From assembly GCA_021234155.1 (NCBI GenBank), contig JAJEKV010000072.1:3726407-3790406 (forward strand): 64,000 nucleotides of DNA, given 5' to 3'. This DNA comes from Isoetes taiwanensis (Eukaryota > Streptophyta > Lycopodiopsida > Isoetales > Isoetaceae). Made by a program: the position numbers and the translations under genes. Positions 14,593 to 60,084 of this stretch are shown piece by piece; position 1 is the first letter of the stretch; the number at the start of each line of letters is the position of its first letter. The notes beneath the pieces were generated by a model that made no database searches, was not told the origin of the DNA, and saw nothing but the letters and a program-made list of their open reading frames with translations.

Positions 14593-15600
14593 ACTAATAA
14601 ATCGATCACTTGATAGTTGATAGTGGAGCTGAAAGAAAGAGTCCACCCATCGAGGCTGTTAAAGAATATATCAACTACAAGCTCGGTGAAAATCAAGTTG
14701 GAAATGGAGCACTTCAAAGAAGTAAAAGGAAGGGGCTTGTTGTGGCTAGAAGATCTTGAAGGCAATATTGTGAACATAGAAGATGTTTTGTATTACCGAC
14801 TATAATCGAAATTTAATTTGTCGGTCGGCTTTTGTGATTTGGGATACAGAGTTGTTTTTGAAGGAGATAAATGTAATGTGTTCTTGAATAATGAATTGAA
14901 GTTTTTTGCTAAAAGAGTTGGCAATTTGTTTGAGATGGATAATGTTATGCATCATAGCATAAATTCAATTCAAGAAGAGAGTGTAGATCTATGGCACAAA
15001 AGATTGGCACACACAAATCGTAAGAATCTGAAATGGTTATTAAAGCAAGGCTACATAAATTATCATGACAGTGAGGCAAATGAATTTATTTGTGAAGGAT
15101 GTGCATTGGGCAAGTTAAACAGGTTGCCATTTTCTAAAAGTAAAACAAGGGCTCAGCAAACCCTTGAGTTGGTACATTCTGATCTATGTGGCCCATTAAA
15201 TGTGCAAAGCAGAACCAACAAAAGATACTTTATAACATTTACAGATGACTATAGCAGAAAATGTAAGACATATTGTTTGACAAGAAAATCTCAAGCTTTG
15301 AGTGCATTTAAACAATATGTAGCTGAGATGGAGAGAGAAACCAATCTCAAACTCAAATGCATTAGGTCTGATAGAGGAGGTGAATACCTTGCAAAACAAT
15401 TCAAACAGGTTTTGTGTTGCTCATGGAATTAAAAGGCGCCTAACCCGGGCAGATACTCTCCTCGGCAAAATGGGGTCTCAGAGAGAAAGAACAGACCTTA
15501 ATGGATGCAAAATGAGCCATGATAAAGGAAGTGGTCTGCCCAACACGCTTTGGGAAGAGGCGTTATAAAGCTTTGTGTTAATACAAAACATCTTCGCCTA
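14593..15600 (+). pseudogene. Copia protease-to-integrase remnant
   Basis: The longest open segment (14818-15432, 204 codons) carries the GAG-pre-integrase motif (LWHKRLAHTNRKNL, with C-x2-C at CEGCALGK) and the start of the integrase core: HSDLCGPL, TFTDDYSRK and SDRGGEY supply catalytic Asp/Asp positions. The third catalytic residue falls past the frame break at 15432, where the sequence continues in another frame (PRQNGVSER-like, degraded). Integrase inserts element cDNA into chromosomes. Confidence 0.85.
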
Positions 15601-27586: not shown

Positions 27587-28601
27587 TTAAAACCAATCGA
27601 AGTCCTCCTCAAGTGATGGAGATGGAATGGGAGAGGTGAATGCCTCCTCAAGTGAAGGAGATGGAATCTGAGAGTTAAATGCAGATAAAGATAGGGATGG
27701 GCTAGGAGGATCTGAAAAAGATGGAGCTGGGGATGCCAAGATAGAAGGCAAGACAGTATCACTAGGGCAAAACTCAAGCATGTAGTCAGAGCCAGTTTTG
27801 CAAGTGAAGGTACTAGAAGCATCATCATAAGCATAACTATAAGCTTGAGGGCAATGTTGCTTGAACATGACTGAATAGAGAGTTGGGGGGCAAGTCTGAA
27901 CACGATCATGGGCACCGGTACAACAATAAACATCAGTGTTAAAGGCAGCGCAGGCACTCTTACACCCAACAACTGCTTGGCTCTGGGGATCGAGTTCCTG
28001 GAGTTGAAGTGGGCAATCACGGTTGATGTCATAGGGACAACCTGAGGCAGAGCAATTGGGAGACAATGGGGAGAGATTCATGGGTAAGTTGTAGCCATCG
28101 ACTAAGGAGACATCAAAGAAGTCATTACCACCATAGCCATCTAGTTGGAGCTCAGCCAAGGTGACGGGAGTTTGGCCACCGCGGCCATTACAGAACAAAG
28201 AACCGCCGCAGTCGCCGGTCATGCAAGTGCCGGATCCGGTGGCGGGGTCGAAGGCGCAACCGGTTCTAGCCCATAGTCTACCACCCCAAGCTTGGGGCAT
28301 GAGAAGATCCGACGTTTCTCCGGGCTGCAACGTGGCACCGCCTAAGCCCACAGGATCGTGGCCTCCATTTGAGACCCAGCCTGGCCATACTGTGAAGGGG
28401 CACGAGTTTTTGAGCGTGATGGATATCGCCATAGTATCTGCGCCAAACATTGGAAGATTCAAGGACCCGTTAACACCAGAATCAGGGACCCGTTAACACC
28501 AGAATTGGAGACAGAAATTTGGAAACCGAGCTTAAAATCGACTTACCGGATACTCCCGTCAGAAGCAGAAGCAGAAGCACGCCAAGCATTGTGATCGCCA
28601 T
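27587..28601 (-). CDS. Thaumatin-like protein (PR-5 family), two exons
   Basis: Exon 1 (28547-28601) encodes a signal peptide, MAITMLGVLLLLLLTGVS. The donor is GTAAGT at 28546 and the acceptor CAG ends at 28438. Exon 2 (27587-28437) joins in phase, giving about 301 residues. The mature part has the thaumatin fold landmarks: ITLKNSCPFTVWPGW, GGRLWARTGC, GDCGGSLFCNGRGG, LAELQL, DFFDVSLVDGYNLPM, GCKSACAAF, YCCTGAH and ACPP-like TCPPTLYS. The REDDD acidic-cleft residues are recognisable and about 16 cysteines are present. A 50-residue Pro/Ser tail with repeated PSPSLEE follows, as in long plant thaumatin-like proteins with cell-wall or GPI-linked forms; I see no clear GPI signal. Family role: secreted, glucan-binding, defence or stress-related. 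Confidence 0.93.
28438..28546 (-). other. Intron of the thaumatin-like gene, 109 bp
   Basis: GT at 28546-28545 and AG at 28439-28438 on the minus strand. It contains a duplicated GGGTCC-TGATTCTGGTGTTAAC phrase. Position after the signal-peptide exon is the classic thaumatin-like gene intron site. Confidence 0.8.
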
Positions 28602-35938: not shown

Positions 35939-36105
35939 GGGAAAAACTCTGACATACCCTTATGTTTTGTTAAAATTAACAAAACGCCCCTAGTTTTGGG
36001 GGTATTTTTATGGAAATGATCATAACTTTTTTGTGATGATCCAAATGAGAATGATCTTTCAGATATATTGTAGAAGAGGTTGAGATCTTTCCATGAAATT
36101 TAACA
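35939..36105 (+). mobile_element. Foldback element, left arm (split by the giant element)
   Basis: The 155 bp at 35939-36093, beginning GGGAAAAACTCTGACATACC, is an inverted repeat of 59929-60084. Together with 59797-60084 it would form an approximately 455-bp foldback element. The giant retrotransposon inserted at TAACA just inside this arm. No target duplication of the foldback element itself could be fixed because of flanking A-runs. Confidence 0.85.
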
Positions 36106-38129
36106 TGTGACGGCCCCAGCTCATATACGATGCCCCGATCGTATACAAACTGGAGATCATTCCTCAAACCAGCATCTGCTCGCTGACGTGAGGCCGTCCA
36201 CCTAACATGGCGTAGGATAGTCTTACCCTTGATTGGGGGATCCCGGAGGTGTGATCCCGGAGGTGTGATCCCGGAGGACGTGTGATCCCGGAGGACGGGA
36301 TCCCACTGTTAACTGCGCAGTTAAAAGGTGACTGCGCAGTTTAGGGCCATTTTTTGGCGGATTTTTGCGTGCTGATAGCAGCGGCGCTGCCCTCTCTTCC
36401 TCCTTGGCATCAAACTAGACTCTTCTCAAGCCCATTCCGACCAACCTCGCACAAACCCCAGCCGATTCCGTGGAGGATCGGCGAAGAAAAATGCATATGA
36501 AAACTTGGCTGATTTTCACTACAAGGGGCTTTTTTTTTTTCCGCAGTTACTGCGCAGTAAGGGGATCCCGCCCTCCGGGATCACACGCCCTCTGGGGATC
36601 CCGTCCTCCGGGATCACACCTCCGGGATCCCCCAATCAAGGGTAAGACTATCCTGAGCCACCTAACATCGGGCTCTTGATGGTGGTCAAGAACTCGACGG
36701 GGAAGAATGGACGTGTCATTCATCCCGTCTCCCTCGGGATCGATCTAGCTGCGGAAGCGTAAGCACACATGAGCACATGACATCAATCAATAATAATATA
36801 CCCACCTCGAAGGGTGGTCCACCATATCACAGTAGCTGCAACAACCATCAGTACATCAACATAACATGGAGAAATCCTACCCAGGCTCAGACTCATGGGG
36901 AAAGACTGACGGCTTGGGTCTCCAGATAGCAATGCAGACAGAATTCATGGCAATTGGATTTGGCTGGCATAGGAACATGGTCGTTGGGTAGTCCTCTCCA
37001 TCCGCCCCTCCTGTGCATGCTTTGCAGATAGGCTGAAAAGTATTGGAGCTTTAACCGTACCTCGCCGGGTTCATAGCCAAGGGGCCACTACCGGGTTGCA
37101 TCTCCCCAGCCCCCCGATGAGGCGGGAGGAGATCCCTCTCCTCCAGTTCATGCTAATCACAAAGCGAGCTAGAGAGCCACCTTTCAGATAATCGACTTGA
37201 ACCCCTAGAAGATGACGATCACCCAAGAGGTGTCGAGCCCATACCCCGCCCCACACACAGTGCGAGGGTATTAGGCCTAGCCCACAATGTTCCCGCCGCC
37301 TGTCGCTACACTGGAGGGATCAATCAGGATCGAGACAAGCCCTCCCTTGTCAGCCGGTCTAGCTCCGCCACCCACAGCCAGGCGGGTTCTTATGCACAGG
37401 CCGCATTAATTGGGAATTAATGGGCTAAAACTAGGATCATACAACTACTTGGGCTCTGGATCTCTACCCCCCTTCCCAATACACAAGAGTGGCGCATAGA
37501 ATGACAAAACATCATCACAACAGAACTGAAAATAATAGAATACATCTATTCTAATCTACCTAATCTTACATGGTTAGGTTCCTTTGTTAGTGTCTATCAT
37601 TCTTAGGCTGTAGGGGTCGCCTATAGCTAAGAATGAATACGAATCCTATCGAATGAGAGCTGAAAACTCGGATCTAGCTATTGGATCAACCACTAACCCG
37701 CTTCTTGGCTGGCTCCCACTCCTCTGAAAGCATCCATGCTGCTGGATCTCGAGATTGATGGGCTTGGATCGAGCTGCAACCTAGGAATTCCGGTTCCTCT
37801 GCTACTGTTCAGGCGAAAGGGCGTCCACTGCTGCTCCAATCCGACCTATAGGGGCTGGAAACCGAAAGGGTTTCCCTTTTAGGGTTTATGTCCCTTTATC
37901 CCCACGAATTTAGGGCTGGTCCCTTTTGGTCAATGGGCCATTGCCACATGGCAAAAAGAATTATATTCACATGTGGCCTTAACATGTGCAATATAATGGT
38001 TCACAGGGTCGTACTCTAGGGTACTACCCCTTTATGGTCGCTGTGTACATGTCGTCTGAGTCGACATGTACTAGTGACGTGTCAATATAATATACGTATT
38101 CATACCGTATATTATTCTGGAACGTCACA
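36106..38129 (-). repeat. Giant element 3' LTR (contains a MITE)
   Basis: 2024 bp, of which 460 bp are a MITE plus one copy of its 9-bp target duplication, leaving 1564 bp, the same as the 5' LTR. The first 95 bases differ from the other LTR at about two positions. Confidence 0.95.
36209..36659. mobile_element. Mutator-type MITE with 9-bp TSD
   Basis: 451 bp with long terminal inverted repeats. The left end is GGCGTAGGATAGTC and the right end, reversed, GGCTCAGGATAGTC; both continue TTACCCTTGATTGGGGGATC and repeated CCGGAGG-TGTGATC units. The 9-bp duplication ACCTAACAT lies at 36200-36208 and 36660-36668. The 5' LTR shows the single-copy site at about 58321-58330. A 9-bp duplication with long inverted ends is the Mutator pattern. 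The interior has TGCGCAGT words near each arm and no ORF. Confidence 0.92.
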
Positions 38130-45236: not shown

Positions 45237-45421
45237 TCACTCACCCATCGGTTCGGAGTCGACCACTTCGGTGACGAGCTGACCCTTGCATTGCTCCATG
45301 AATTGTGGGTACTGCTTCTCAAGATCTGATTGTAGTACCCACATAGCGTCTTCCACTGGTAAATGCGTCCATTTCACAAGGTACTGGAGAAATTGAGATC
45401 TTCTCGTCTTCTTATAGAATC
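45237..45421 (-). pseudogene. Chromodomain at the integrase C-terminus
   Basis: After an in-frame TGA (ELLLD-stop) the same frame continues FYKKTRRSQFLQYLVKWTHL, then PVEDAMWVLQSDLEKQYPQF and ends at 45237. YLVKW-x3-P-x-EDA-x-W is the plant chromovirus chromodomain signature. Chromodomains guide integrase to particular chromatin. The stop separates it from integrase in this copy. Confidence 0.88.
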
Positions 45422-46877
45422 AGTCGAGAAGAAGCTCAGGGACAATCTCAAGCTGATCGTCCGTTAATTCCAGTAAACTCGGTGTCTCCAATACTTCCTC
45501 TGGATTAGGAGTGTGTTTCTTTAGGAGACTTACGTGAAAGACTCTATGGATCTTCAGGTGTGCTGGTAAGTCCAATTTGTAGGCTTGGTTGCCCACTCTT
45601 TCGACAATTTTGAATGGACCAGCCCACCTTGGAGCAAGCTTCTTGCAATTGCCGATGCGGAGCTTTGCTTGTTTGACTTTTATCTTCAGCCAAACATCGT
45701 CCCCTACTGGGAACTCCCTTACTGTTCGGTGCCGATCAGCTATGCTCTTTTGCCGGCTTCTTGCTGCTAAGAGGTATCCTCGCACCTCTTCAAGCAATTG
45801 TTGCATCTTGGCTAACATCTGATGGGATACTTCTACCTTGGACACAGGGTTGTGCCAAGTGTCTGGTGTCAAGCACTGATAGCCGTAGTTGATCATAAAC
45901 GGCGACATTTGGAATGACTCTTGCTTGGTGCTATTGTATGCAAACTCAACCAAGTAGATGAAGTCATCCCACTTTGATTATAATTCCGCAACATATCTTC
46001 AAGTATCCGATTGGTGCGCTCCATCTGCCCATCTGTCTGAGGGTGATAAGACGAGCTCATTGATAATTTCGTTCCGATGGTGCTGAAGAGATCCTGCCAG
46101 GATGCACTCATGAACTTCGAATCCCTATCAGAGATTATTTCTCTTGGCATCCCATGGAGTCTAAAAATCTCCTTTGTGAATAACACGGCCGTGTCCAAAG
46201 CCGGTGCTCCTACAAGGCACAAAGTGCGCCATTTTCGACAATTTGTCGACTACGACCATTAAGGCGTCTTTGCCCCTTATGGTTCTAGGGAGCCCTGTAA
46301 TGAAGTCCATGCTGATTATCTCCCACTTGGAGTTTGGTACTGGCAATGGCTCTAATGCCCCTGGAATTCGTAGTTGCTCTGCTTTGGTCTGCTGACATAG
46401 CTGACACTCGCGTATATACCTTGCTATCTGCTTCTTCATGCCTGGCCAATAGTGACTACTCCTTATCTTGAAGTAGGTTTTCGTAAAACCTGCGTGGCCG
46501 ACTATTGGGCTGTTGTGGGTGTCGTGGAGAATCAACCTTCTGACTCCAGATGATTCTGGCACACACAACTTATTCTTATGGTACAAGACATTTCTCTCCT
46601 TCTTAAAATGTTTGAAGTTTTCTCTCTCCTTGTCTGTTCTTGCCTTCTTAGAAAGGCTTGCCCATACTTCCTGAAAGTCCTTGTCCGTTGGTAACGTTTC
46701 TTGTATTTTCTTGCCAAACTCACTGGTGAGTGTTGATATGGCATTGCAATGCACTCTTGTTGTTAAGGGATGTCTTGACAGAGCATCTGCAACCACATTG
46801 AGTTTCCCCGACTTGTACACAATCTCGAAGTCGTATTCTTCCATGAACTCCATCCATCTCCTTTGTCTCAAATTCAA
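45422..46877 (-). pseudogene. Ty3/gypsy integrase, frameshifted
   Basis: The first part (46161-46877) holds the zinc-binding H-H-C-C motif (HDTHNSPIVGHAGFTKTYFK ... CQLCQQ) and the start of the core, MDFITGLPRTIRGKDALMVV. A shift near 46200 moves to the next part (45893-46222) with REIISDRDSKF and SSSYHPQTDGQMERTNR, supplying the second Asp and the Glu. The last part (45420-45953) has the C-terminal GPFKIVERVGNQAYKLDLP and HRVFHVSLLKK (GPY/F module). Confidence 0.93.
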
Positions 46878-46892
46878 TAATGGTTGCGTGAA

Positions 46893-47258
46893 AAATTACT
46901 GTAGACTCTGATGGTCGGTATCTAATTGGAACTTCCTTCCCAATAGATAGTGTCTCCAGATCTTTAAAGCTCTTACCACTGCCAATAGCTCCTGATCATG
47001 TGTCGGGTAGCGAGTCTCTGCGTCGTTCATCTTCCGTGAATCGTATGCTACGACTCTTTCTTCTTGCATTAGGACTGCTCCCGTCGCAATCTTGCTAGCA
47101 TCAGTTGCGACTAGCTTGTCCTTCTCTGGATCTGGCAATGTTAAGACGGGGGCGGTTGTTAAGGCTTCCTTCAACTTCTCAAATCCTGCTTGAGCCTTCT
47201 TTTGCCAATGTGCCACCCAGTCTTTTATCTTTTCTGCCTTGGTGAGGTCCGTCAAAGG
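46893..47258 (-). pseudogene. Ty3/gypsy RNase H
   Basis: TLPDPEKDKLVATDASKIAT, GAVLMQEERVVAYDSRKM and YPTHDQELLAVVRALKIWRHYL are the gypsy RNase H motifs with catalytic Asp and Glu. The frame is shifted from RT at about 47255 and is followed after DHQSLQ by an in-frame stop (expected tyrosine in DHQSLQYFFTQ). Confidence 0.92.
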
Positions 47259-48262
47259 TGCGCTATCTTAGCAAAGTTCTTGACAAACTTTCTATAATAT
47301 CCTGCTAAGCCCAAAAAGCTTCTCACCTCGTGTATGTTCCTTGGTGCTGGCCATTCAATCACTGCTTGGATCTTTGCGGGATCGGTGGAGATGCCGTCTG
47401 CTGATATAATATGCCCCAAGTATTCCACTTTTTCGGTGGCGAAGTGACATTTCGACAACTTCACATAAAGCTGGTGTCTTCTCAGCTTCTCAAGTACCCT
47501 TCTCAAATGCTGAATATGCTCCTCTAGGGACTTGCTATACACCAAAATGTCATCGAAGAACACGATAACAAATGTGTCAAGGAATTCCCGAAAGATATCA
47601 TTCATGAGTCTCATGAACGTTGCTGGGGCATTAGATAGGCCAAATGGCATCACTGTGAATTCATAGTGGCCATATCTTGTTTGGAACGCCGTTTTGTGGA
47701 TATCTTCCTCCTTGATTCTGATTTGATGATATCCAGACCTTAAGTCTATTTTGGAGAAGACTCTGGCACCTTGTAACTGATCCATCAGGTCATCTGCTCT
47801 TGGTAAGGCATACTTGTTCTTGATGGTGTGTTTGTTTAATTGACGGTAGTCAATACACATCCTCAAGCTTCCATCCTTCTTCTTGACAAATAAGATGGGG
47901 GCTCCGAACGGAGAGACACTAGGCCTTATGAATCCTAGGTCTAATAGCTCTTGCAATTGCTTCTTCAACTCTGATAGTTCGTGAGCCGTCATTCTATACG
48001 GTGCCTTACTTGTGGGCTTGGTACCTGGTTCGAGTGCAATCTCGCACTCCACTCCTCTAAATGGTGGGAGTTCTTTGATTTCATCGGGAAACAAGTCATG
48101 GAACTCCTTTATTAGCTTAGCTATCTGCTTGGGTAGCTTGCTCACTGATTTATCTTCTTTATCCTCTGGTGCCTCTTCTTCGGCAAGTTCTAATTTGAAG
48201 ATGTATGCAACTTGCTCCCTTTTGATGCATCTATGTAACTTCTTACTCGACATGCATTGCAT
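47252..48262 (-). pseudogene. Ty3/gypsy reverse transcriptase, largely open
   Basis: 336 open codons. Domains in order: the protease/RT linker [19 protein letters not shown], then [88 protein letters not shown], the catalytic [11 protein letters not shown], and [13 protein letters not shown]. The FFDD form replaces the commoner YxDD or FIDD; both catalytic aspartates are kept. Shifted out of frame just before RNase H. Confidence 0.95.
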
Positions 48263-48411
48263 TATAGGTGTTACTTGCTTACCTGTGATCTCTATAATTT
48301 TCCGTTGGTAGTTAGCTTCACCTTTCGGCTCCCCACAATCTATTTGGCGCTTTTTTGCGGGTGGAGGTATTCCATACCTATGATGAGGTCATATTTTCCG
48401 ATGTTCATGAT

Positions 48412-48765
48412 CTACGCCCCCATTTCAATATTGATGCGGGTAAGTCTATATTGAAATTCACCCTCTTGCTTAAGACGCGTTCGATGGCTCCGCTTAGCTA
48501 ACACTCTTTGGCCGGGCTTAGACTTCAATGTTTTCAACTTTAACATTTCAGCCATCCTTGGTGACGTAAAGTTGTGGGAACTGCCACAGTCTATGAGGAC
48601 TATGAAAGATTTGGCGGCTATCTTACCAATTGTGGATATTACTTGGTACTGGCTCTCTGCGCTTTCTGTATCTATGGCGGCAAAGATATGGCACTCACCA
48701 TGGATAAAGTCGCTGTCCTTCGCCCCCTCCTCTTCCCTCGGGGTCTCCCAACCTCCCATCTCCAT
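48412..48765 (-). pseudogene. Aspartic protease of the giant element
   Basis: SFIVLIDCGSSHNFTSPRMA contains the protease active site: plant gypsy elements normally have LIDSGSTHNF. The Asp and Gly are intact, with Cys in place of the first Ser. It is split from RT by stops near 48410. Confidence 0.8.
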
Positions 48766-48779
48766 AGTGTCTTTGCATT

Positions 48780-50031
48780 CATCTTTAGGCGGTTATTGTG
48801 TTCTATGCCCTACCGGAAGCACCGGAAACACAACTGCTTTTCTATGCATTCTTGCCGCTTTTCCTTCGGAATGGAGTTGAGGAACTGCTTGACTGTCTTT
48901 GAGTAGTTTGAGCCTCCCCCTTGTCCTTTATTTTTAAAGCTGACGTGCTTTTTCTCTGGCTGCTTCCATTGGTTTTCAAGTATGGCGTCTTGGCGGTGTG
49001 GACTTTTGGTTGCTCTCGGCTCGGCCTCCATACCCTTTTCCTTTGTCATACCACTGCTTGGGTTCACTATTCTGGGTTCCCGATCCCTGTAAGCTTATGG
49101 CTTTTGCTTCGGCCTCCAATACTGAGCGCGGGTTCAGGGCCCTGACTAATTTCCGTAGTTCTTCATTCAGGCCCTCCACATAGCCTTCCACCGCTCTTCT
49201 CTCACTGAGTTTTGGCACATAAAGCCTCAACCTAATGAACTCCTCCGTATATTTGCATGGATTTGTTTTCGTTGCAAACCGTGGAAGGCTTACATCGATG
49301 GCACTTGTGCTCTCTCGGGCACATAGTGTTGTTTGAAAGCCTTCGCGAACTTTGTGAACCTGCACTTGTCTCTGCTCATCCCGTGGGCTTTGGCATAGCC
49401 CCTCCACCAAATATGGGCTGCCCCTTTCAAGTTAGCGGTGGCTACTCTGCCCTTATCCTTATCCTTCATACCGTAAGCATTTCCATATTCGCTCATCTCG
49501 TCTAGCCATGCTTCCCGGCTTCAGATCTGACTGTTTTTGGGAAAAGCGTTTCCGGCTCGCGGGCTTTCCAAACATTACTCACGCCGAAGTCGACCTTTTA
49601 CGGTAGTCGGATTGGTTTTATTGTCTTGCCCTTATTCTTTCTTCCCTTTGGCGGTCCTATCATTTCTTTTCTCGGACTTCGAGCTTGAGTGGTACCCCTC
49701 AAGAGCTGGATTTGGAAGATCTGCGTCGGCTCCTCTTTCTTTCTTTTCCCTTGTGTTGAGAACGGGCCTCTGGGGGTTGCACGTTCTGGTCCTGCCTGTT
49801 ATTCCCTCTGCCGGCCAACATGGCTTTTATTTCTTGCAGATCTGACCTCATTTGCGAGATTTCCTCTTCCAGTGTCGGTGCATAGTACTCTTCGAAGAGA
49901 TTCCGAGGCTGGAATTGTCCCGATGGTGTGTGCTCGCCTTGGGCTTGGAATTCAATTTCGACATTCCTGGCTGTTCTAGCTGCACATATTGCATTGGCAC
50001 CATTTATCATGAGTTCTTTTGTTGGTTGCAT
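48780..50031 (-). pseudogene. Gag of the giant element, frameshifted
   Basis: A probable start at 50031 (MQPTKELMINGANAICAART) leads to a polar N-terminus with a short coiled coil (LEEEISQMRSDLQEIKAML). A shifted frame at 49290-49496 carries the capsid (retrotrans_gag) signature GAAHIWWRGYAKAHG. A third frame (48976-49410) has FIRLRLYVPKLSERRAVEGY and ELRKLVRALNPRS. The zinc knuckle is ruined: CFRCFR is followed by a stop and the downstream His/Cys are not recognisable. Confidence 0.85.
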
Positions 50032-50099
50032 TATGAGTTTGAATGATATGATTGTTAAGGCAAAGATATCAAAAAGACATTTTAAAATGCAATTCAAAA

Positions 50100-50174
50100 G
50101 ATCTTATATTTTTATCAATATATAGCCGATATATATTAAGTTAATACAATAGTCATGATTTCCGTTACATTGAT
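50100..50174 (-). other. Short spacer between ORF2 and gag
   Basis: Contains AATATATATCGGCTATATAT on the minus strand, a possible third TATA-like element ahead of gag. Purely positional inference. Confidence 0.3.
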
Positions 50175-51695
50175 TTACTGATGGGATGGGTGATCCTCAA
50201 GGAATTTCTTCACTTGGGCTGTACCCACTGTACGTCCCAAGTTCCGGAGTATATCCCTCGATGATCCCCCTCGGATAGCTAAGGCTAGCTCTTCGACCCG
50301 TCTATCGGAGGTATGAGCTGCTGTTACTGCCAATCTACCTTGTCGAAGGTGGGGTACCGCGAAGTCGAAAATGCTCAAGGCTGTCCTCTGCTTCACCAAA
50401 ATTACATAGTCGACTTTTTCTGATAGCCGTGCGTGCATGCCAAAACCTGATAGTGCTATCAGCATCTGCACTGCTTCTTCTCCACGTGGGCTGAAAAGCT
50501 TATGGAATACTATTATCCTACCGTCTGTTAGGAGCGGAAGATAGTATTTAAGTGCTGCTCCGGGTACTCCTCCCCGTGCTCCTGAGGTAGACCTGTGCCT
50601 TGATGCATACTGATCGACCCGTACTTGAACTAATTCTTCGTAATCATGGAAGAGCGTTCGTACACTTGTTAAGTTCGTGGCTCTCCCTAGGAACGTTGGT
50701 AATGGTTCTTGTGAAGAAGATTCTGGTTGAAGTGCTCTTGTTGTCTTCCCCCTTATTCCCATCTGCTCTTGGAGTGCCACAAACTCCTCCTCTGTAGGGA
50801 GTTGTTCTTCCGTCATCATGCCTCTGATAGTGCTATAGGCTTCGATGTCTGACACGCTGTGTCCTGTGTATGTGGCTGCTTCCCTTACTTGAACTGGAAA
50901 GTCATCTGTTTCTTGGTCGATGAAATCCTCTAAGTCCGGCTGCTGCCGTATAAGGTGAAGGAGTTCGTCGACGCGATAGCCTCTGTCTCTGCATTCGGGG
51001 AGGTTTTTAATATCGTTTAGGAACAAATATTCCTGCCCTTTTCGACTATGATCGGTGCTAGACTTGTTATTCCCAGCCCGATTGATTGTGCTATCCTCGG
51101 TGTGCTCCTGTCAGCTTCGAAACGGCTGACGTCTTGTTCTGCTTCTCGGCGTTCTTCCTCTGGGTCCACTTCCATTTCCTCTTCACTTTCCTCTTCTGAG
51201 TCCTCACCTTCTTCGGATGATTCCACTATGGACTGCTCGTACTCAAGCAGTAGTTGTTCGTCTGCTGCTGAGTCCAAGGGTGTGACCTCTAGTGGCTGGA
51301 TTGATGGTTCACCTACCACGGTTTGGGCCCTATAGAATAAATATAGTGCTAAGGCTGTGTTGTAAGAGAAAAATCTCTTTCTATTACTGCTCAGGGTCAT
51401 GTAGTTGGGTAGGCGCTCGGTTCTATTCTGCAGCAGTTTCGCAATGTTGGGTATATGACTAAGGGTTGTTTGCAATGCAGTTTGGTACAAAGTACCCTAT
51501 GCATGGGGGTACTTCTTGCAAGCTAGGAGCTACTTTCTCTTGGAATTCGTGCAGAACTTGTTGGTAGAACGGGTTTGAGTTCAGGGTTGCCGACAAGTCA
51601 AATTCTTTCTGGAAAACTTGGAATACTAGGTTAACATCTACCTCAGCAATGTGGGGAGAGGCACTGTACCATCTGATGAAGGATGAGGTAGCCAT
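50175..51695 (-). pseudogene. ORF2: unknown accessory protein upstream of gag
   Basis: Three overlapping frames (51695-51459, 51490-51017, 51026-50175) make about 500 residues separated by two single-base-type shifts. The N-terminus MATSSFIRWYSASPHIAEVD with FQVFQKEFDLSATL matches the 20656-20838 fragment. A middle acidic run (VESSEEGEDSEEESEEEMEVD) follows, then a globular-looking half: DELLHLIRQQPDLEDFIDQE, PGAALKYYLPLLTDGRIIVF, LSEKVDYVILVKQRTALSIF, ELALAIRGGSSRDILRNLGR. I recognise no family. A TATA box lies 112 bp upstream of the ATG, and a hairpin-repeat cluster before that, so it probably has its own transcript. Confidence 0.7.
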
Positions 51696-51806
51696 GAGGA
51701 GGAGCGTGCGGCCGATATCAAACGGAACTGGAAGCGCTTAAAGAGGCTGGAAGATTGCCTTGGGCGCAGGAGCAACTTTTTAGGTGTGGTTTAGGGGTTA
51801 TGAGGG

Positions 51807-51850: not shown

Positions 51851-51995
51851 ACTTTTGGCATTTTGAGATGAAGTTTGATGTTTCTAGGTTAATTTGGAGC
51901 TAGAAATGGATTGTATACAGTTTTTGGGTTCTGATGCAACAAATTTTGGCCGATTTGGGTATGTCTAACACAAGTTATGGACCTTGAAAGGTCGG

Positions 51996-52069
51996 ACCCC
52001 TCTAAGCGTGCGCGAGGAGGGTGTTAGGTTGGGACCTAAGTGGCCTCTGGCACACCCTTAGAGGTGTTG
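51996..52069 (-). repeat. Cruciform repeat core, copy d
   Basis: 74-bp core reading ACCCCTCTAAGCGTGCGCGA ... CACACCCTTAGAGGTGTTG on the plus strand. The outer stem CCTCTAAG/CTTAGAGG is intact; the inner arm (GTTAGGTTGGGACCTAAG) is imperfect. Confidence 0.85.
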
Positions 52070-52208
52070 GTTTATCTATATCTAATGGATGCTAAGAACA
52101 AGCCCAAAGACGTGAATTCCTACTTATTCTCTTCTGAACTGCAAATTTCTTTGATTATTTACTTCATTTGGAGCAGGTAAGGAGCTGATCAAGGGCCCAG
52201 TTGGCCGG

Positions 52209-52282
52209 ACCCCTCTAAGCGTGCGCGAGGAGGGTGTTAGGTCCAGACCTAACTATGCTCTGGCGCACCCTTAGAGGTGTTG
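52209..52282 (-). repeat. Cruciform repeat core, copy e
   Basis: 74 bp, starting exactly 213 bp from copy d. Outer stem CCTCTAAG/CTTAGAGG and GTGCGC/GCGCAC; inner stem GTTAGGTC/GACCTAAC. Confidence 0.88.
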
Positions 52283-52418
52283 GTCAAAATTTCACATTTG
52301 CTCCTTAACTACTACTATATTTAATCCAATGCACGTTTTACACAACTATATATCCTTTTTGTTCAAAATTTTCATTCATTACATATAAGCCTGTTAGTTA
52401 CAAAAAGTAGCTTCTGTT

Positions 52419-53003
52419 CTATTTATCTGTCCTCTTGATGTATTTGGCCAGTCTCATGTCCTTTGGTTGAAGCGTGACTCTTTTTGCATGGAGCGTGCAT
52501 GCCAGTGAATCTTCAAAGTGTTGCACGACTTCCATCTCTGCTGCTTCTTGTAAAGCGAGTAACATATCGTTAGTTACTCGCTTGTTGGGGTCGAAGTCCC
52601 ACAGAATCTCCCTGACGAATCTCTGGAATGCTGCTCTGGGAATCAGAAATCCGTAACTCCGTTGGAAGTGCCGGATTTCTCGCAGGGCTCTCGCAAATGG
52701 GGAGTCTTGGGATCTTTTCATGGGTTTCTTTGGGGGGTCCGGAAGCTCTGGTGGAGGTTTCAGCTGGAATATCTCTGGTGTTGGCCGCCCTCCTTCGATA
52801 TATTTTACCCTGTGTGCCTCGTAATAGGCACTGTACTCGGTGTGCATCTTCTTGTATACTGTATAGTCTGCTAACTCTTTCTTGTATCTCCTCTCGGGCC
52901 CTAAGGTGTACGAGTCCCTGGCCGTTTTGTTCGCCTTCTTTGCGGATGCTTTCTCTGCATCCAGCTTCTTTGCCTCTTGCCATTCTGAAAACGGTGGAGG
53001 CAT
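52419..53003 (-). CDS. Histone H3-fold protein encoded by the giant element
   Basis: 194 open codons. Residues 1-70 are Lys/Glu-rich and probably helical; 71-100 are Pro-rich. Residues 101-194 align without a gap to the H3 core, about 45 of 94 identical by eye: ALREIRHFQRS, FQRFVREI, ALQEAAE, FED, HAKRVT and PKDMRLAKYI, ending four residues after the alpha-3 helix as in H3. Positions for H3-H3' and H3-H4 contact (Cys110, His113, Arg116, Asp123 equivalents) are kept. LREIRHFQ and LIPRAAF resemble plant CENH3, but loop 1 has the canonical H3 length. No H3 tail precedes the fold in this frame; upstream frames may supply an N-terminus from 53318. It lies in the sense direction of the element, between leader and ORF2. 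Function is inferred only. Confidence 0.85.
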   Translation of the reverse strand: MPPPFSEWQEAKKLDAEKASAKKANKTARDSYTLGPERRYKKELADYTVYKKMHTEYSAYYEAHRVKYIEGGRPTPEIFQLKPPPELPDPPKKPMKRSQDSPFARALREIRHFQRSYGFLIPRAAFQRFVREILWDFDPNKRVTNDMLLALQEAAEMEVVQHFEDSLACTLHAKRVTLQPKDMRLAKYIKRTDK

Positions 53004-53318
53004 TGGCGGGGGTAGCTCAACGCGTGTTTCTGCCGGTCCTAGGCTGGGGTTTGGTCCTCCTCTTGGGGTTCATCTGTCTCAGGATGAGGGTTCTGCTGCT
53101 TCTGCGAGGATTCCCCAGTTCCTAGAAGTACTCCCTCCAAGAAGTTCTGCAAATCACCGGTATCTTCAGACGAGGATGGAGGTAGGTCGCCTTCGGATCG
53201 TTCGTCGATGACGACGCCGACTGAGGTCCTCCTCTTCTTAGGCGGGGGCTCGTCTGTCATTACCTTTTTGCCTTTCCTATCGGGTTCTTCCCTGCTCTTT
53301 GTCCTTTGCTCGCGCCAT
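53004..53318 (-). pseudogene. Probable N-terminal part of the histone-fold gene
   Basis: ATG at 53318 gives MARAKDKEQGRTR in the same frame as the histone fold, then a stop. A shifted frame (53260-53039) continues with a basic cluster PPPKKRRTS, like a nuclear localisation signal, then Ser/Asp/Glu-rich sequence, then stops. The fold frame resumes as NPSLGPAETRVELPPPMPPP directly into the 53003 start. Two compensating single-base shifts, or an unrecognised splice pattern, would give a protein of about 300 residues. MARAK echoes the MARTK start at 19849. Confidence 0.5.
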
Positions 53319-56300
53319 TGGTCTTCGCAGTGGCTTATGAGACAGAGAGAATAAAGAAATCCAGATACGATATATCATATTACTCAAATCAGCTGCACTT
53401 TATTTGTTTTTTTAGACAAGAGCATCCTACTGCTAAAATTACATGCAAAAAGATGATACATAACACTCTCTTGAACATCACGCTGCATTCATCAACCTTA
53501 CTGGACTTGCCTATCGCTTGTCGGCATCAGATCGATTTCTTTGTCCTCGCAAATGGTAGCATCAAGTTTGAATTTGGAAACAAGGGAACCTAGGCCACAA
53601 ACCAAGCTGCAGTTATGGAAAGCAAGTGCCTGGAGGAGATGACAAAGCAAAACTGGATAAATGGAACAGGATAGAATAGGAATAGAATGAGGACAATGGA
53701 ATACAGTAAAAAATACAAGCTTAACAGAAGAAAGAGGAGATCCTGGAATATACAGAGAAGAAAAGAAGAGAAGCAAAGCGCTGCAGCCTAGGTCCCCCTG
53801 TTACCAAATTCAAACGTGAAACCAGAGAAAGAAAAAACGCCGGATTTGATGCTGGAGGAAAGAAGCCGATCCATACACTTGCCAGCAAACTAGAGAAATT
53901 TATACTGTGTAAGGATGTGGTTGGGTCTACTGTTCGAAACAAGTTCAAAAACGACGACACAAAACGAACCCACCAACAGCAAGGATGAAAATGACCACAG
54001 GCAAGTGGTGTGGTTTGCGCCTCTGCAACCTCTGCACACCCTCTTGCTTGCCGCCCTCCTCTGCCTTTAGCTTTGCGTGCATGGCCCTTTTTGTTCGTGC
54101 AGCATTACTCCATCGCCATAACTTGCCTCGAATTTGAAGCTCACTTACTTACCTGCAAGATTTTTTCTTTTGCAACAAATCTTCTGCCAAAATCCAAACC
54201 CTAAAACACAAAACTGAGGCCTTGACTCTTCCGATGCAAGCAGTCCCTTTCTATCAATCAATGCTCTGCGATTCTACTCAAAACATGCTAGAAATCTGGG
54301 CTTGGAAGTATGACAGCGGCAAAAATGCCAGCTCTGATGCACGCGGAGCCACAGGTAATCATGTACACCGGACCGGGCCGGAAGGCCGGACGTATATGCA
54401 GTCCGATACAGAGAAAAAGGAAAGAACAACGAACTAAAGAGAAAAGGAAAAGAAAAAACAACCTGTGTCTGTGTCGTCGCCTCCCTCCGTCCTCCGTCAG
54501 CTTATCGCCATAGCCGACACCTTGTACCTTTCTTCTTCCATACCTGTACTCTAAACCTCGGCAACATCTGGAGCGTCCTCAACACGTGCCTGTGCCCGCG
54601 TGATGCTTACGCGGTGGTTTGTACGCCGTCCATTGCATACCCTGACAAAAGAATATGCGTTTAGTATATTTTTATTTGCCACGTCATTTTTCCACGTCAG
54701 ACGAAAAAGTTGTGGGGTTTTATTTTGAACAATGCATTCTGGATTCTGGTAAGAGCATAATGTGGTACAACATGTCACACAATGTTGTACCGCATGTTGG
54801 TCCCCACTTTGTGTATTGCATATCATATGCAATAAAATGGACTTCTCTCGAAAACCCATTCTAGAAGCCCGTAAAGGACAGGCAGGCTGTATTCAGCCTT
54901 GTCCGCCAATGAGACCTCGACATGTGGCAAAGATTCTTTTTGAGGAACTCCCCTGATGTCGTTGTTGGTCTACATTCTTTGTTTTATTCCGTCGCTGCTC
55001 TCGATTTTGCCACAAATCAATCTAGACCATCCAACGGGCAACGATCAATGGGCTGAATACAGCCTGCTAGTCCTTCACGTTAAGAGAATAGCCCGGAGGG
55101 TTGTTTTCTAGGCCTATCAAACAGCCCTCCGCCTAACAACATCGGGTCGTTTTCCAGGCCCAGAAAACAGCCCTCCGGGCCATTCCCCTATACAAGAATG
55201 CCTTGTTATTTTTGTCCCTACTTACAAACATTGTCGGACTACAACTATGAAGGAATTGGCATTTAGCATATAAATCATCTACTGAATCCTCAAAAGTGGT
55301 CATATGAGCCCCTGAGAGCTTTAAGGAATCAAGCTAATGGACAAATTGCCTTGGGGTAAGTACACACCCACCATTATCAATCTTGTTAATTTGGGATTTT
55401 TTGGCCTGGTGGAAAATACTTTTTTTTTTTTTTTTTTTTTCTTGTGATTTCCTAAGATTCTTGATGGTTTGGTTGCCGGAAAATATTTCCGTGTTTTAAA
55501 AAATCGGGACCATTTTCTTCGTATGATTTCGAACAATGTTTTTTATTTGTATGGAGTTTTTCCAATTTTTCATTTTTTGGCGGATTGCAAGTGTCGAGTA
55601 GATGATGCATGCCAGCTTATGCATTTCTAGCAGATTTGGCAGACGTTAGATGGGCGTGGAAAAGCAAACCCTGAAACTGGAATCTTACAAATTGTTTTGC
55701 CCGGGTTGCTATTGCCGGATTTGGTGTAGCCAGAACTGGCGTGGATATTTGGCCGAAATAATTTCCTCGAATACTATATGCACAGTTGTTTTTTGGAGTT
55801 CCCATAACAGGTTAGTCTGTGCTTTGTTAGAAAACAAAAGGCAGAAGAGTGCAGGAGGTTTTTCCAAAAGGTAGAGGAGTGTAGGAGGTATAGATTTGGT
55901 CTAATCTTTTCGGTTAATCCTAGGCTCTGTTATTAACAACGTTTTGCAGCTCTGTTGAGTGATTTCCTTTTTGATGTGATCAAAACCCCTCTCTAAGAAG
56001 TGATTTGCCGTAGCGGTTTTGCAAGGAATGATTCGATTGCAAGATGTAGATTGGATCATGTATTTATTAATTCCCTACAGTTTTGCATCATTGTTTGTGT
56101 GATTTGACACTTTTTCTGTTCTTTGCTCAAGCAGGCAGACTTGACACTACTTGAAGATGCACCACATCCTACTGGGACTTCAAAGATTGCATGCCAAAGA
56201 CCTCATCTAGATTACATTCTAAAGATCATCTAAGGTATAAGAGCTGCTTTAAAATTCTGTTTGATGGTTCAAGGACCTCATCCAGATTGACCATGCAAGA

Positions 56301-57240
56301 TATGCCAATTTCCTTTAAAATTCATTTGATGGGTTGATATTGAATGGACTATCTATGTTTCTACCGTTACTCCATTGTTATGTTATTGCACATAAGGGAT
56401 TTGAAGGGCATGGTGAAGCAGATCTGAAAAGCTCTTATGCCTTATTCTTAAATGGTAAGAGAGGGAAAAACTTTGATTTATTTGGAGATGTATGAGGTAG
56501 CAGAAGCAGAAAAGATATGTGGATATGGAAGCACAAAAATTAGAGTTTATTTCATTGAGAAGTATGCTCACATTCACTTCATATGTCCATTTTTTTGTTG
56601 ATATTCATCTTGTTTTTCAGATGTCCCAAATGCTTAACATGTCGTAGCGAGTTGCCACTGTCTAAGATGTTAACCCATCTTTGCGATTCCATTGTTTTGT
56701 ATACATGGATAAATCTTCCTAGCCTTATCCTTCTAGCTTTTGCAAAACACATAGATCTACATCTTGCAGAGAATTGTTCTATGCATACAAATATCATGTC
56801 ATATATAAAGTAACTGACTAGAAGACAAGAAATATTGACTATTTGCCTACATGTTTTCAGTTGAGGCACAAATTGCAGAATAGAGAAGGCAAGAAAAGAT
56901 GGCAACATGCCCCGAGCAATACTCATCATTCTTAAATATATCTGAGCAAATATAGCTTTTTTTGAGCAAGCAAGACTGCCTAATGGTTATTTTTTTACTA
57001 TTTAATCTGTTAGTAAAAATTGTCTCTATTGGAAGCACTTTGTTGTACAATTTTTTGGACGATGAAAGGCACTTGGGAGGACAGAATGTAAGCTATAGTT
57101 CTTTGCGATCATAACATCTGAAAAGCTTTAGTACAGGGGTATATTAAGCAGTAATTCCATGTGATTTGCATGCAGTGAGTGATAAATGCCAGGTCTTAGG
57201 TTTTCTTATTGCGTGTGTTTCCATCTTGCAGGTGTCTCTG
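53319..57240 (-). other. Non-coding interval between promoter module and histone-fold gene
   Basis: About 3.9 kb with only short frames. It could be a long leader intron or a later insertion. It contains a foldback MITE (54869-55079), a hairpin at about 54762-54792 (GGTACAACAT/ATGTTGTACC), paired CCCGGAGGG words near 55095 and 55180, and a T22 run at 55420. I found neither convincing splice donors after the 57.36-kb TATA box nor insertion duplications. Confidence 0.45.
54869..55079. mobile_element. Small foldback MITE, about 210 bp
   Basis: CGTAAAGGACAGGCAGGCTG, then TATTCAGCC (54871-54900), is inverted at 55042-55071 as GGCTGAATACAGCCTGCTAG, then TCCTTCACG. No ORF. No target duplication was fixed. 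Confidence 0.7.
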
Positions 57241-57357
57241 CAGCATGTGGCTGATATCACAACAATCTTCATTTTCTTCCAGATGGTTGCGTTTGCCTAT
57301 CGGGACGAGCTCGAAGAACAACGTGGGAAACCCTAAAAATGAGGCCTAAGTCCACTA

Positions 57358-57364
57358 ATTTATA
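57358..57364 (-). promoter_or_regulatory. TATA box with telo-box and site II-like motif
   Basis: Minus strand: TTGGGCCAAACCCTAAAAAT (57374-57393), then TAAACCCTATAAATTAG. TGGGCC (site II) beside AAACCCTAA (telo-box) is a known pairing in promoters of plant proliferation genes. Confidence 0.65.
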
Positions 57365-57471
57365 GGGTTTAATTTTTAGGGTTTGGCCCAATTGGTTATT
57401 TTGTTGGTTTGCTGACGAAATTCTCCCCACCTTGAATCAAAGTGGAGTCTTCTTCAACCATTTTCCTTCGA

Positions 57472-57545
57472 ACCCCTCCAAGAGTGCGCGAGAAGGGTGT
57501 TAGGTCCGGACCTAACTATGCCCTGACGCACCCTTAGAGGTGTTG
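57472..57545 (-). repeat. Cruciform repeat core, copy a
   Basis: 74 bp. The inner arm is an 18-bp perfect palindrome, GTTAGGTCCGGACCTAAC. The outer stem is weakened (CCTCCAAGAG against CTTAGAGG). Confidence 0.85.
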
Positions 57546-57684
57546 CCCCGTTCTGTTCTAAACATTTCCAATTTACATATATGAACATGCGTTTCCCGCT
57601 AATTTAAGCATTCTAAGTAAGATTCTACCATTTCTTTTAGATTTTGAGTAAGTTTTGAGCAAATTCCGAAGTCACTTTTAGGGG

Positions 57685-57758
57685 ACCCCTCTAAGCGTGC
57701 GCGAGGAGGGTGTTAGGTCATGACCTAACTATGCCCTGGCGCACCCTTAGAGGTGTTG
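57685..57758 (-). repeat. Cruciform repeat core, copy b
   Basis: 74 bp, 213 bp from copy a. Inner perfect palindrome GTTAGGTCATGACCTAAC; outer stem CCTCTAAG/CTTAGAGG plus GTGCGC/GCGCAC, all perfect. Confidence 0.9.
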
Positions 57759-57898
57759 CTCCAAAAATAATTTTTACTTACTAGTTTTCTATGTTTTAGC
57801 ATACAAATCTAGCTAATTCGAGCTTTTTAAATGGGATTTCATCTTTTCTTTTACAATTTAGGGCTCCTAAGGCCGAGTTCTAGGGTTCATATGGGGTG

Positions 57899-57972
57899 AC
57901 CCCTCTAAACGTGCGTGGGAGACCAATTAGGTATAGATCTAACATGCTTCTGGCGCATCCTTAGAGGTGTCG
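57899..57972 (-). repeat. Cruciform repeat core, copy c
   Basis: 74 bp, 214 bp from copy b. The most diverged copy (ACCCCTCTAAACGTGCGTGG; inner arm ATTAGGTATAGATCTAAC). Confidence 0.8.
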
Positions 57973-58214: not shown

Positions 58215-58226
58215 GCTCTGATACCA
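58215..58226 (-). promoter_or_regulatory. Primer-binding site of the giant element
   Basis: Minus strand TGGTATCAGAGC, one base after the 5' LTR terminus GTCACA. Matches initiator-Met tRNA and fixes the element's orientation. Confidence 0.92.
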
Positions 58227-58227
58227 T

Positions 58228-59791
58228 TGTGACGGCCCCAGCTCATATACGATGCCCCGATCGTATACAAACTGGAGATCATCCCTCAAACCAGCATCTG
58301 CTCGCTGACGTGAGACCGTCCACCTAACATCGGGCTCTTGATGGTGGTCAAGAACTCGACGGGGAAGAATGGACGTGTCATTCATCCCGTCTCCCTCGGG
58401 ATCGATCTAGCTGCGGAAGCGTAAGCACACATGAGCACATGACATCAATCAATAATAACATACCCACCTCGAAGGGTGGTCCACCATATCACAGTAGCTG
58501 CAACAACCATCAGTACATCAACATAACATGGGGAAATCCTACCCAGGCTCAGACTCATGGGGAAAGTCTGACGGCTTGGGTCTCCAGATAGCAATGCAGA
58601 CAGAATTCATGGCAATTGGATTTGGCTGGCATAGGAACATGGTCGTTGGGTAGTCCTCTCCATCCGCCCCTCCTGTGCATACTTTGCAGATAGGCTGAAA
58701 AGTATTGGAGCCTGACCGTAGCCTGCCGGGTTCATAGCCAAAGGGGCCACTACTAGATTGCATCTCCCCAGCTCCCGATGAGGCAGGAGGAGATCCCTCT
58801 CCTCCAGAAGTTCATGCTAATCACAGGCGAGCTAGAGAGCCATTGCTCGTATACGACTTGAACCCCTAGAAGATGACGCATCACCCAAGAGGTGTCGAGC
58901 CCATACCCTGCCCTCACGCAGTGCTAGGGTATTAGGCCTAGCCCACAATGTTCCCCGGCCGTCGCTACGCACCAGAGGGATCAACTGTGATCAGACAAAC
59001 CCTCCCTTGTCAGCCGGTCTAGCTCCGCCACCCAGAGCCAAGCGGGTTCTTATGCACAGGCCGTATTAATTGGGAATTAATGGGCTAAAACTAGGATCAT
59101 ACAACTACTTGGGCTCTGGGTCTCTACTCCCCTTCCCAATACACAAGAGTGGCGCATAGAATGACAAAACATCATCACAACAGAACTGAAAATAATAGAA
59201 TACATCTATTCTAATCTACCTAATCATACATGGTTAGGTTCCTTTGTTAGTGTCTATCATTCTTAGGCTGTAGGGGTCGCCTATAGCTAAGAATGAATAC
59301 GAATCCTATCGAATGAGAACTGAAAACTCGGATCTAACTATTGGATCAACCACTAACCCGCTTCTTGGCTGGCTCCCACTCCTCTGAAAGCGTCCATGCT
59401 GCTGGATCTCGAGATTGCTGGGCTTGGATCGAGCTGCAACCTAGGAATTCCAGTTCCTCTGCTACTGTTCAGGCAAAAGGGCGTCCACTGCTGCTCCAAT
59501 CCGACCTATAGGGGCTGGAAACCGAAAGGGTTTCCCTTTTAGGGTTTATGTCCCTTTATCCCCACGAATTTAGGGCTGGTCCCTTTTGGTCAATGGGCCA
59601 TTGCCACATGGCAAAAAGATATTATATTCACATGTGGCCTTAACATGTGCAATATAATGGTTCACAGGGTCGTACCCTAGGGTACTACCCCTTTATGGTC
59701 GCTGTGTACATGTCGTCTGAGTCGACATGTACTAGTGACGTGTCAGTATAATATACGCATTCATATTGGTATATTATTCTGGAACGTCACA
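58228..59791 (-). repeat. Giant element 5' LTR
   Basis: 1564 bp, TGTGACGTTCC...GGGGCCGTCACA on the minus strand. Shows the unoccupied site of the MITE found in the 3' LTR (CCACCTAACATCGGGC at about 58320). Confidence 0.95.
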
Positions 59792-59796
59792 TAACA

Positions 59797-60084
59797 TCTC
59801 CTGAATCGGATTCCGAAATCTCAAGTTATGGTCTCGTAAATCCCTCTGAAATTTCTACAATTTTCTTGTGTATTAAAAATAGCATAACTTGTGATTTAAG
59901 ACTCCGATTTATATGATTTTACCTTTAATGGAAAGATCTCAATCTCTTCTACAATAGCTCTGAAAGGCTCATTCTCATTTGGATTATCACAAAAAAGTTA
60001 TGATGATTTCCATAAAAATACCCCCAAAACTAGGGGCGTTTTGTTAATTTTAGCAAAACATAAGGGTATTTCAGAGTTTTTCCC
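59797..60084 (+). mobile_element. Foldback element, right part
   Basis: About 130 bp of loop followed by the right arm 59929-60084, the inverted counterpart of 35939-36093. The arm ends CAGAGTTTTTCCC. Confidence 0.85.

Follow-up and report, generated by a model that had tools for sequence, protein, structure and literature searches.

ORF-A, a gene carried by a Ty3/gypsy retrotransposon of Isoetes taiwanensis, is a retrotransposon-encoded histone H3 variant that is kept by selection. It was found in a stretch of 64,000 nucleotides (here called the window, in which all positions without a contig name are counted), where one damaged copy of the element lies. In the family to which this copy belongs, the gene order is LTR, primer-binding site, ORF-A, ORF-B, gag, pol with chromodomain, and LTR, ORF-A being the 5'-most gene. 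It is almost certain that the family carries the H3 gene in this fixed order and that selection has kept both its tail and its core.

The Element in the Window

The window element has the parts that define a Ty3/gypsy retrotransposon, namely an LTR pair, a target duplication, a primer-binding site, reverse transcriptase (RT) and integrase (Table 1). The LTRs end in TG...CA and lie at a distance of 0.042 from each other. The first-pass annotation had placed the gene in sense orientation inside a fully bounded LTR element, and this was borne out by the 96% identity of the LTRs, by the 5-bp target duplication TAACA on both sides (59792-59796 and 36101-36105) and by the common minus orientation of ORF and element. 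The primer-binding site motif TGGTATCAGAGC, which we take to be of the tRNA-iMet type, adjoins the LTR end in nine further loci. Assignment to the chromoviruses is based on a chromodomain at the C-terminus of the integrase: Chromo PF00385 matches the end of the integrase piece of a sister (L033 / C1039 copy) with E=1.3e-6 and 28.6 bits (cut-off 25.1), and the window counterpart of this stretch is in a broken frame. The gag of another sister (L032) matches PF03732 and PF19259, and its CCHC-knuckle matches are weak. As had been noticed for the gag-pol frames at first sight, ORF-B, gag and pol of the window copy are spread over several frames.

The flanks of the insertion (35939-36106 and 59916-60084) are inverted repeats of each other (92%), so that the insertion site was apparently the centre of a palindromic repeat. 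The insert of about 450 bp in the 3' LTR (36208-36660) has inverted ends and is MITE-like. A Ty1/copia-type integrase fragment and a thaumatin-like gene were noticed, by eye only, at 14818-15432 and 27587-28462.

Table 1. Features of the H3-bearing chromovirus in the window.
Feature	Position	Strand	Evidence or remarks
Whole chromovirus (Ty3/gypsy)	36106-59791	minus	LTR pair, target duplication, RT and integrase
5' LTR	58228..59791	minus	96% identical to left LTR; TGTGACG...CGTCACA ends
Primer-binding site TGGTATCAGAGC	58215..58226	minus	just inside right LTR
Three leader hairpins	57471..57972 (57899-57972, 57685-57758, 57471-57545)	minus	after primer site, ~213 nt apart
Nested insert, 3,968 bp	53327..57294		replaced 317 bp including ORF-A start codon and H3 tail
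ORF-A remnant	52419..53326	minus	first ~92 codons gone; frame break near 53.05 kb; open frame 52419-53069
H3 histone fold (core) of ORF-A	52422..52712	minus	PF00125, PDB H3.3, AlphaFold2, Foldseek
Two hairpins between ORF-A and ORF-B	51995..52281 (52208-52281, 51995-52067)	minus	~213 nt apart
ORF-B remnants	50175..51737	minus	~540-aa accessory protein, acidic stretch, broken across frames
gag and protease region	48415..50103	minus	broken frames in window
Reverse transcriptase	47255..48388	minus	PF00078 E=6.6e-43
RNase H, integrase, C-terminal chromodomain (FLQYLVKWTHLPVEDA)	45240..47267	minus	PF17921, PF24626; several frames
3' LTR	36106..38129	minus	carries ~450-bp insert at about 36209-36657

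The Histone H3 Fold of ORF-A

The ORF-A frame of the window (52419-53003, minus strand) encodes 194 aa and sits between gag and the 5' LTR. The uninterrupted match to the H3 core that had been read from the letters alone, with the suggestion of an HMM search, was recovered by Pfam Histone PF00125 over residues 92-189 (E=5.7e-23) and by a PDB search, in which H3.3 was the closest solved structure and aligned without gaps over residues 98-190. The same reading had put the changed residues at about half, and the core of the intact sister L006 is 45% identical to host H3. An AlphaFold2 model, built with H3 relatives supplied as the alignment, contains four helices (residues 102-115, 123-137, 145-172 and 180-193) placed as alphaN, alpha1, alpha2 and alpha3; ten-residue means of pLDDT are 87-96 over residues 121-190 and 71-78 over alphaN. 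All 50 Foldseek matches listed are chains of nucleosome or histone-octamer entries. Of the two marks by which an H3 was recognized, the histone fold with an alphaN helix is present in the window ORF-A; the ARTKQTARK tail is present in its sisters and missing from the window copy, where it was deleted, and from five proteins of a second element group described below (group II).

The whole ORF retrieved 730 entries from the protein database, with a query coverage of at most 66% among the 120 listed, and 20 sequences inspected were H3-domain proteins without the N-terminal half of ORF-A. Residues 1-100 gave six candidates, none with E<=1. For residues 1-330 of a sister protein, a weak query, probably dominated by charged low-complexity words, none of the 8,000 candidates scored reached E<=0.001. 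A tblastn search of phage records gave no match to ORF-A, and of six pattern matches in viral contigs none was confirmed.

Damage and Native Structure of the Gene

The alignment of the window with sister L006 around ORF-A covers 51901-53326 and 57295-57970. The window copy has no canonical H3 tail because the insert at 53327-57294 replaced the gene start; the true N-terminus of ORF-A in intact sisters is a canonical H3 tail, which is invisible from the window alone. The ATG at 53318, taken in the first-pass annotation as the upper end of the ORF, is thus not the start of the gene, and in the sisters it is internal and in another frame. Hairpin repeats on both sides had also suggested that the entire H3 gene lies inside an insert of ~5 kb. 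This idea was ruled out, since the native order in sisters is hairpins, ORF-A, hairpins, ORF-B, and only 53327-57294 is foreign.

The ORF-A Family in the Genome

The genome searched comprises 1,658,258,908 bp in 1,110 contigs. Among 9,578 candidates, 150 scored matches to ORF-A were obtained, which are 60-100% identical, contain open frames of up to 482 aa and are spread over many contigs. Sixty-two loci were examined: the 30 top-ranked ones, a further 20 of high rank, and 12 of lower rank that were selected mainly because their frames are long. Of the 62, 34 (25 of clade 1, 9 of clade 2) have the tail motif together with an open frame of more than 330 aa. These intact proteins are 387-406 aa long in 33 cases and 360 aa in one. 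They begin with MARTKQTARK, including lysines 4 and 9, continue with ~285 charged linker residues, in which a nuclear-signal-like PPKKRR was seen by eye, and end with a complete H3 core; they are basic, with a pI of 9.5 in L006 and 9.4 in L045. When 53 loci were aligned by their flanking DNA, without requiring the motif, MARTKQTARK was exact in 41, different in 9 and affected by indels in 3. With a clade 2 query, the tail was exact in 16 of 19 loci, a set that overlaps the 53. The two clades share 42% identity over the whole protein (L045 versus L006), about 62% over the 194-aa region and 0.68-0.70 in the core, and despite the low overall identity their tail is the same. Clade 1 is loosely delimited, L073 being 66% identical to L006.

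Three clade 1 copies were inspected in pieces. The copy at C974:15242263-15257059 has both LTRs, with distances of 0.044 and 0.065 for their two parts, and a target duplication, AATAT. Its order is three hairpins, ORF-A, two hairpins, ORF-B, gag, RT, RNase H/integrase, integrase and LTR, and it also contains broken frames and foreign LTR-like pieces between gag and RT. The C1035 copy has a 5' LTR and the same gene order, and on its 3' side an LTR piece lies inverted; a search of 9.3 kb upstream of the C1039 copy revealed no 5' LTR. The early reservation that no other copy might carry the fold is thereby removed, as the 150 scored matches include an LTR-bounded copy with a target duplication. 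According to the Isoetes taiwanensis genome paper, repeats with BLASTx similarity to plant proteins were taken out of the repeat library (PMC8566536), and this filtering may be the reason why H3-bearing repeats went unnoticed.

ORF-B and the Hairpins

ORF-B gave 137 scored matches among 10,788 candidates. Its sister frames are 520-550 aa long without stops, and L083:182-1579 encodes 466 aa. One of the 107 listed ORF-A places lies within 5 kb upstream of 32 of the first 50 ORF-B places, mostly at ~1.4 kb, and the other 18 are without one. Because the order and the spacing to ORF-B are fixed, ORF-A is not a one-off host H3 pseudogene, which had been the other reservation. In both groups of elements, ORF-B is the neighbour of the H3 gene. 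It has no Pfam domain above the cut-off, its PDB profile search gave only E>5, and its single-sequence AlphaFold2 model has a pLDDT of 36.

The five hairpins of the window, ~66 nt each, are found at the same places in three sister copies. Their fold z ranges from -2.0 to -6.6, with little covariation (2 of 20 pairs), and blastn of clade 2 pieces gave no match to them.

Selection on ORF-A

Across 21 copies of ORF-A (210 pairs), the median dN is 0.045, the median dS 0.51 and the median omega 0.094. These dN/dS values are well below 1, as expected of a functional gene and far from the near-neutral ratio that would have spoken against the first proposal. In the same 21 copies, pN/pS is 0.054 in the core versus 0.195 in the preceding half. 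By region, omega is 0.016 in the tail, 0.160 in the linker and 0.086 in the core of clade 1 (25 copies), and 0.081, 0.182 and 0.073, respectively, in clade 2 (9 copies), both sets having been chosen by tail motif and open frame. Within clade 1, the omega of ORF-A (0.06-0.13, six pairs) is like that of RT (0.067, one pair) and RNase H/integrase (0.08-0.18), and that of ORF-B is higher (0.18-0.26); one integrase pair gave 0.54 at a very low dS of 0.036. Between clades 1 and 2, the dS of ORF-A is saturated and no ratio is obtainable. The copies used for dN/dS were ranked by protein similarity, those of clade 2 being mostly long-frame picks; such sampling favours low dN and may lower omega, but it cannot explain a dS of ~0.5 with an omega of ~0.1.

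A Second H3-Bearing Group

Group II was met by searching the genome with the plant CENH3 P0083. Among 7,900 candidates there were 150 scored matches, and the one with the highest score is an ordinary host H3 gene. In five examples chosen for long frames, ~290 residues of another domain, without an ARTKQTARK start, are followed by an H3 core that is near-canonical (85% identical to host H3 in the one measured). Elements of this group, with a near-canonical core fused to a ~290-aa domain (L074-L078, L083 and L084), are very numerous. One group II H3 has, downstream of it, a homolog of ORF-B (20-25% identity, E 1e-8 to 1e-9), a piece of protease and an RT that is 88% identical to the window RT over 133 residues, with 76% and 48% in adjoining pieces. 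The N-terminal domain alone gave 135 scored matches of 4,845 candidates, and 20 of its first 40 places have one of 101 H3-core places within 400 bp downstream; its best PDB match has E=0.25. Omega in the five copies is 0.133 for the N-terminal domain, 0.282 for the joint and 0.035 for the core. Since a different N-terminal domain recurs on an H3 core in group II, the fold is the constant part.

Group II adjoins host H3 in both trees (96/55 in one, 85/55 in the other). A single origin of the H3 of group II and of clades 1 and 2 was mildly rejected (AU p=0.041), in core trees that are short and weakly supported. Histone H4, the only histone used as an amplification control, gave 69 candidates and 43 matches, of which 16 are full-length (99-100%, frames of 107-146 aa); all others are fragmentary or diverged, and their frames do not exceed 176 aa. 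H4 is without such amplification, and the amplification therefore concerns H3 and not H4.

Core Residues and the CENH3 Question

Host H3 and all cores compared (seven of clade 1, five of clade 2 and five of group II) agree at 33 core positions, including R69, R72, R83, C110, H113, A114, K115, R116, V117, T118, K122 and L126. With the exception of K122, these named residues are presumably DNA-contact and H3-H3 interface residues. Clades 1 and 2 differ from H3 at R63, K64, F84, K56, K79 and R129, so that not all nucleosome contacts are kept.

Loop 1 of CENH3 is longer than that of canonical H3, and the ORF-A core is without the extra loop-1 residue of two aligned plant CENH3 proteins (P0041 and P0083). 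Clades 1 and 2 group with the two CENH3 in one tree, unsupported at 76/45, and the grouping is absent from the other. The original suggestion that the family recruited an H3 or CENH3-like gene thus stands as to recruitment, given the copies, the low dN/dS and the fixed order; the source may have been either an H3 or a CENH3-like gene, the extra loop-1 residue being absent and the CENH3 grouping appearing in one tree only. A few H3-like places, such as G000:C1050:7232507-7232926, match plant CENH3 through its last residue and are possibly the host CENH3 gene or copies of it.

Possible Function of the Element-Encoded H3

That selection has kept the gene intact suggests that the elements use H3 to act on host chromatin. 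The best explanation overall is probably a chromovirus family whose first gene is an H3 variant acting in nucleosomes or tetramers with host H4, and nucleosome entry with host H4 would be the likeliest role as judged from sequence. Translated as the first ORF, the protein would enter the nucleus, pair with host H4 to form nucleosomes or H3-H4 tetramers, and be incorporated on the element's own DNA or at insertion sites. Its modifiable H3 tail would be presented on an oversized N-terminal arm. On balance, we think that ORF-A may work in this way and that the tail-bearing arm may mark or shield the element chromatin or help the integration complex to dock; the acidic ORF-B could, speculatively, be a partner or chaperone of ORF-A.

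A soluble mimic of the H3 tail could also occupy the host enzymes or readers of H3 lysines 4 and 9 and weaken silencing without entering nucleosomes. The tail is the most constrained part of the clade 1 protein and is identical in both clades, whose whole proteins are only 42% identical, as such a decoy would lead one to expect. But the core is strongly constrained too, with H3-H3 and several DNA-contact residues kept, and group II retains the core without this tail; a pure tail decoy is thus unlikely, and formation of nucleosomes or tetramers is favoured because the core is common to both groups. It is quite unlikely that the histone fold is a nucleocapsid-like accessory that condenses the cDNA or RNA of the element within the particle or the pre-integration complex. 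The 5'-most position of ORF-A, upstream of ORF-B and gag, would suit such packaging, as would its basic character next to the acidic ORF-B, whereas a full H3 tail is unnecessary for it and the gag of sister L032 already has weak CCHC-knuckle matches.

A CENH3-derived factor that steers the element to centromeres is very unlikely. The LIPRAAF and HFQ positions resemble plant CENH3 (P0083 and P0041), and one tree groups clades 1 and 2 with them, but that grouping is unsupported and absent from the other tree, the extra loop-1 residue is absent, the canonical tail is kept, and the 150 matches are scattered over many contigs. LTR elements are well known to capture host genes (PMC7264820), and group II is close to host H3, so that a trapped H3 retrocopy hitchhiking as a passive passenger was also considered. 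This is highly improbable, and the selection results refute it as the sole explanation: omega is low, the tail is mostly exact and the gene order is fixed in many copies, and there are two diverged clades besides group II.

Beyond the favoured role in nucleosomes or tetramers with host H4, a wider reading is put forward tentatively, as somewhat doubtful: a retrotransposon lineage with its own H3s, probably captured twice, might build element-specific nucleosomes whose tails are read and written by the host, the element thereby controlling its own chromatin code rather than merely reading it by way of a chromodomain. Plant-type (group II) chromodomains reportedly do not bind H3K9me, and their partner is reported as unknown (PMC2832683, PMC3350952). 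A candidate for the partner of the element's chromodomain is the H3 tail that the element itself encodes. If the chromodomain is of this plant type, the partner question becomes directly testable in an element that encodes a chromodomain as well as an H3 with lysines 4 and 9 in its tail. Mobile elements are, as a rule, what histone-based silencing acts upon; those described here encode its central histone, under selection and in very many copies. The family amounts to a natural experiment on the divergence that H3 can undergo while it is retained, and wrongly annotated histone genes in lycophyte genomes are likely to derive from it.

Comparison with Known Systems

To our knowledge, a histone-type gene is known from no retroelement, and searches of the open-access (PMC) literature found no retrotransposon-encoded histone. 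The word "histone" is absent from the review of additional ORFs (PMC7264820), and the word "retrotransposon" from the review of viral histones (PMC9145170).

With plant chromoviruses of the Tekay, Galadriel, Reina and Tcn1 clades, the Isoetes element shares LTRs, a tRNA-iMet-type primer site, gag, protease, RT, RNase H and an integrase with chromodomain; it differs from them in two extra genes upstream of gag, one of which is histone H3. Compared with plant CENH3 and other H3 variants, ORF-A likewise has an H3 fold with a diverged core, but it lies on a mobile element, has ~285 residues between tail and core, and is without the CENH3 loop-1 residue. Single viral histones, namely H4 in bracoviruses and H3 in a phycodnavirus and a xenomavirus, are described in PMC9145170; like them, ORF-A is a lone core histone that was captured and would probably enter host nucleosomes, but they belong to DNA viruses and ORF-A to a retroelement. 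LTR retrotransposons with additional ORFs likewise have a family-wide accessory ORF that may act on host regulation; according to the review of additional ORFs (PMC7264820), these lie most often between pol and the 3' LTR, whereas the Isoetes H3 gene lies upstream of gag. Orchid elements carrying an AlkB demethylase are mentioned in PMC12786077. Chromoviruses with additional ORFs are an already known kind of element, and the novelty is histone H3 as the cargo.
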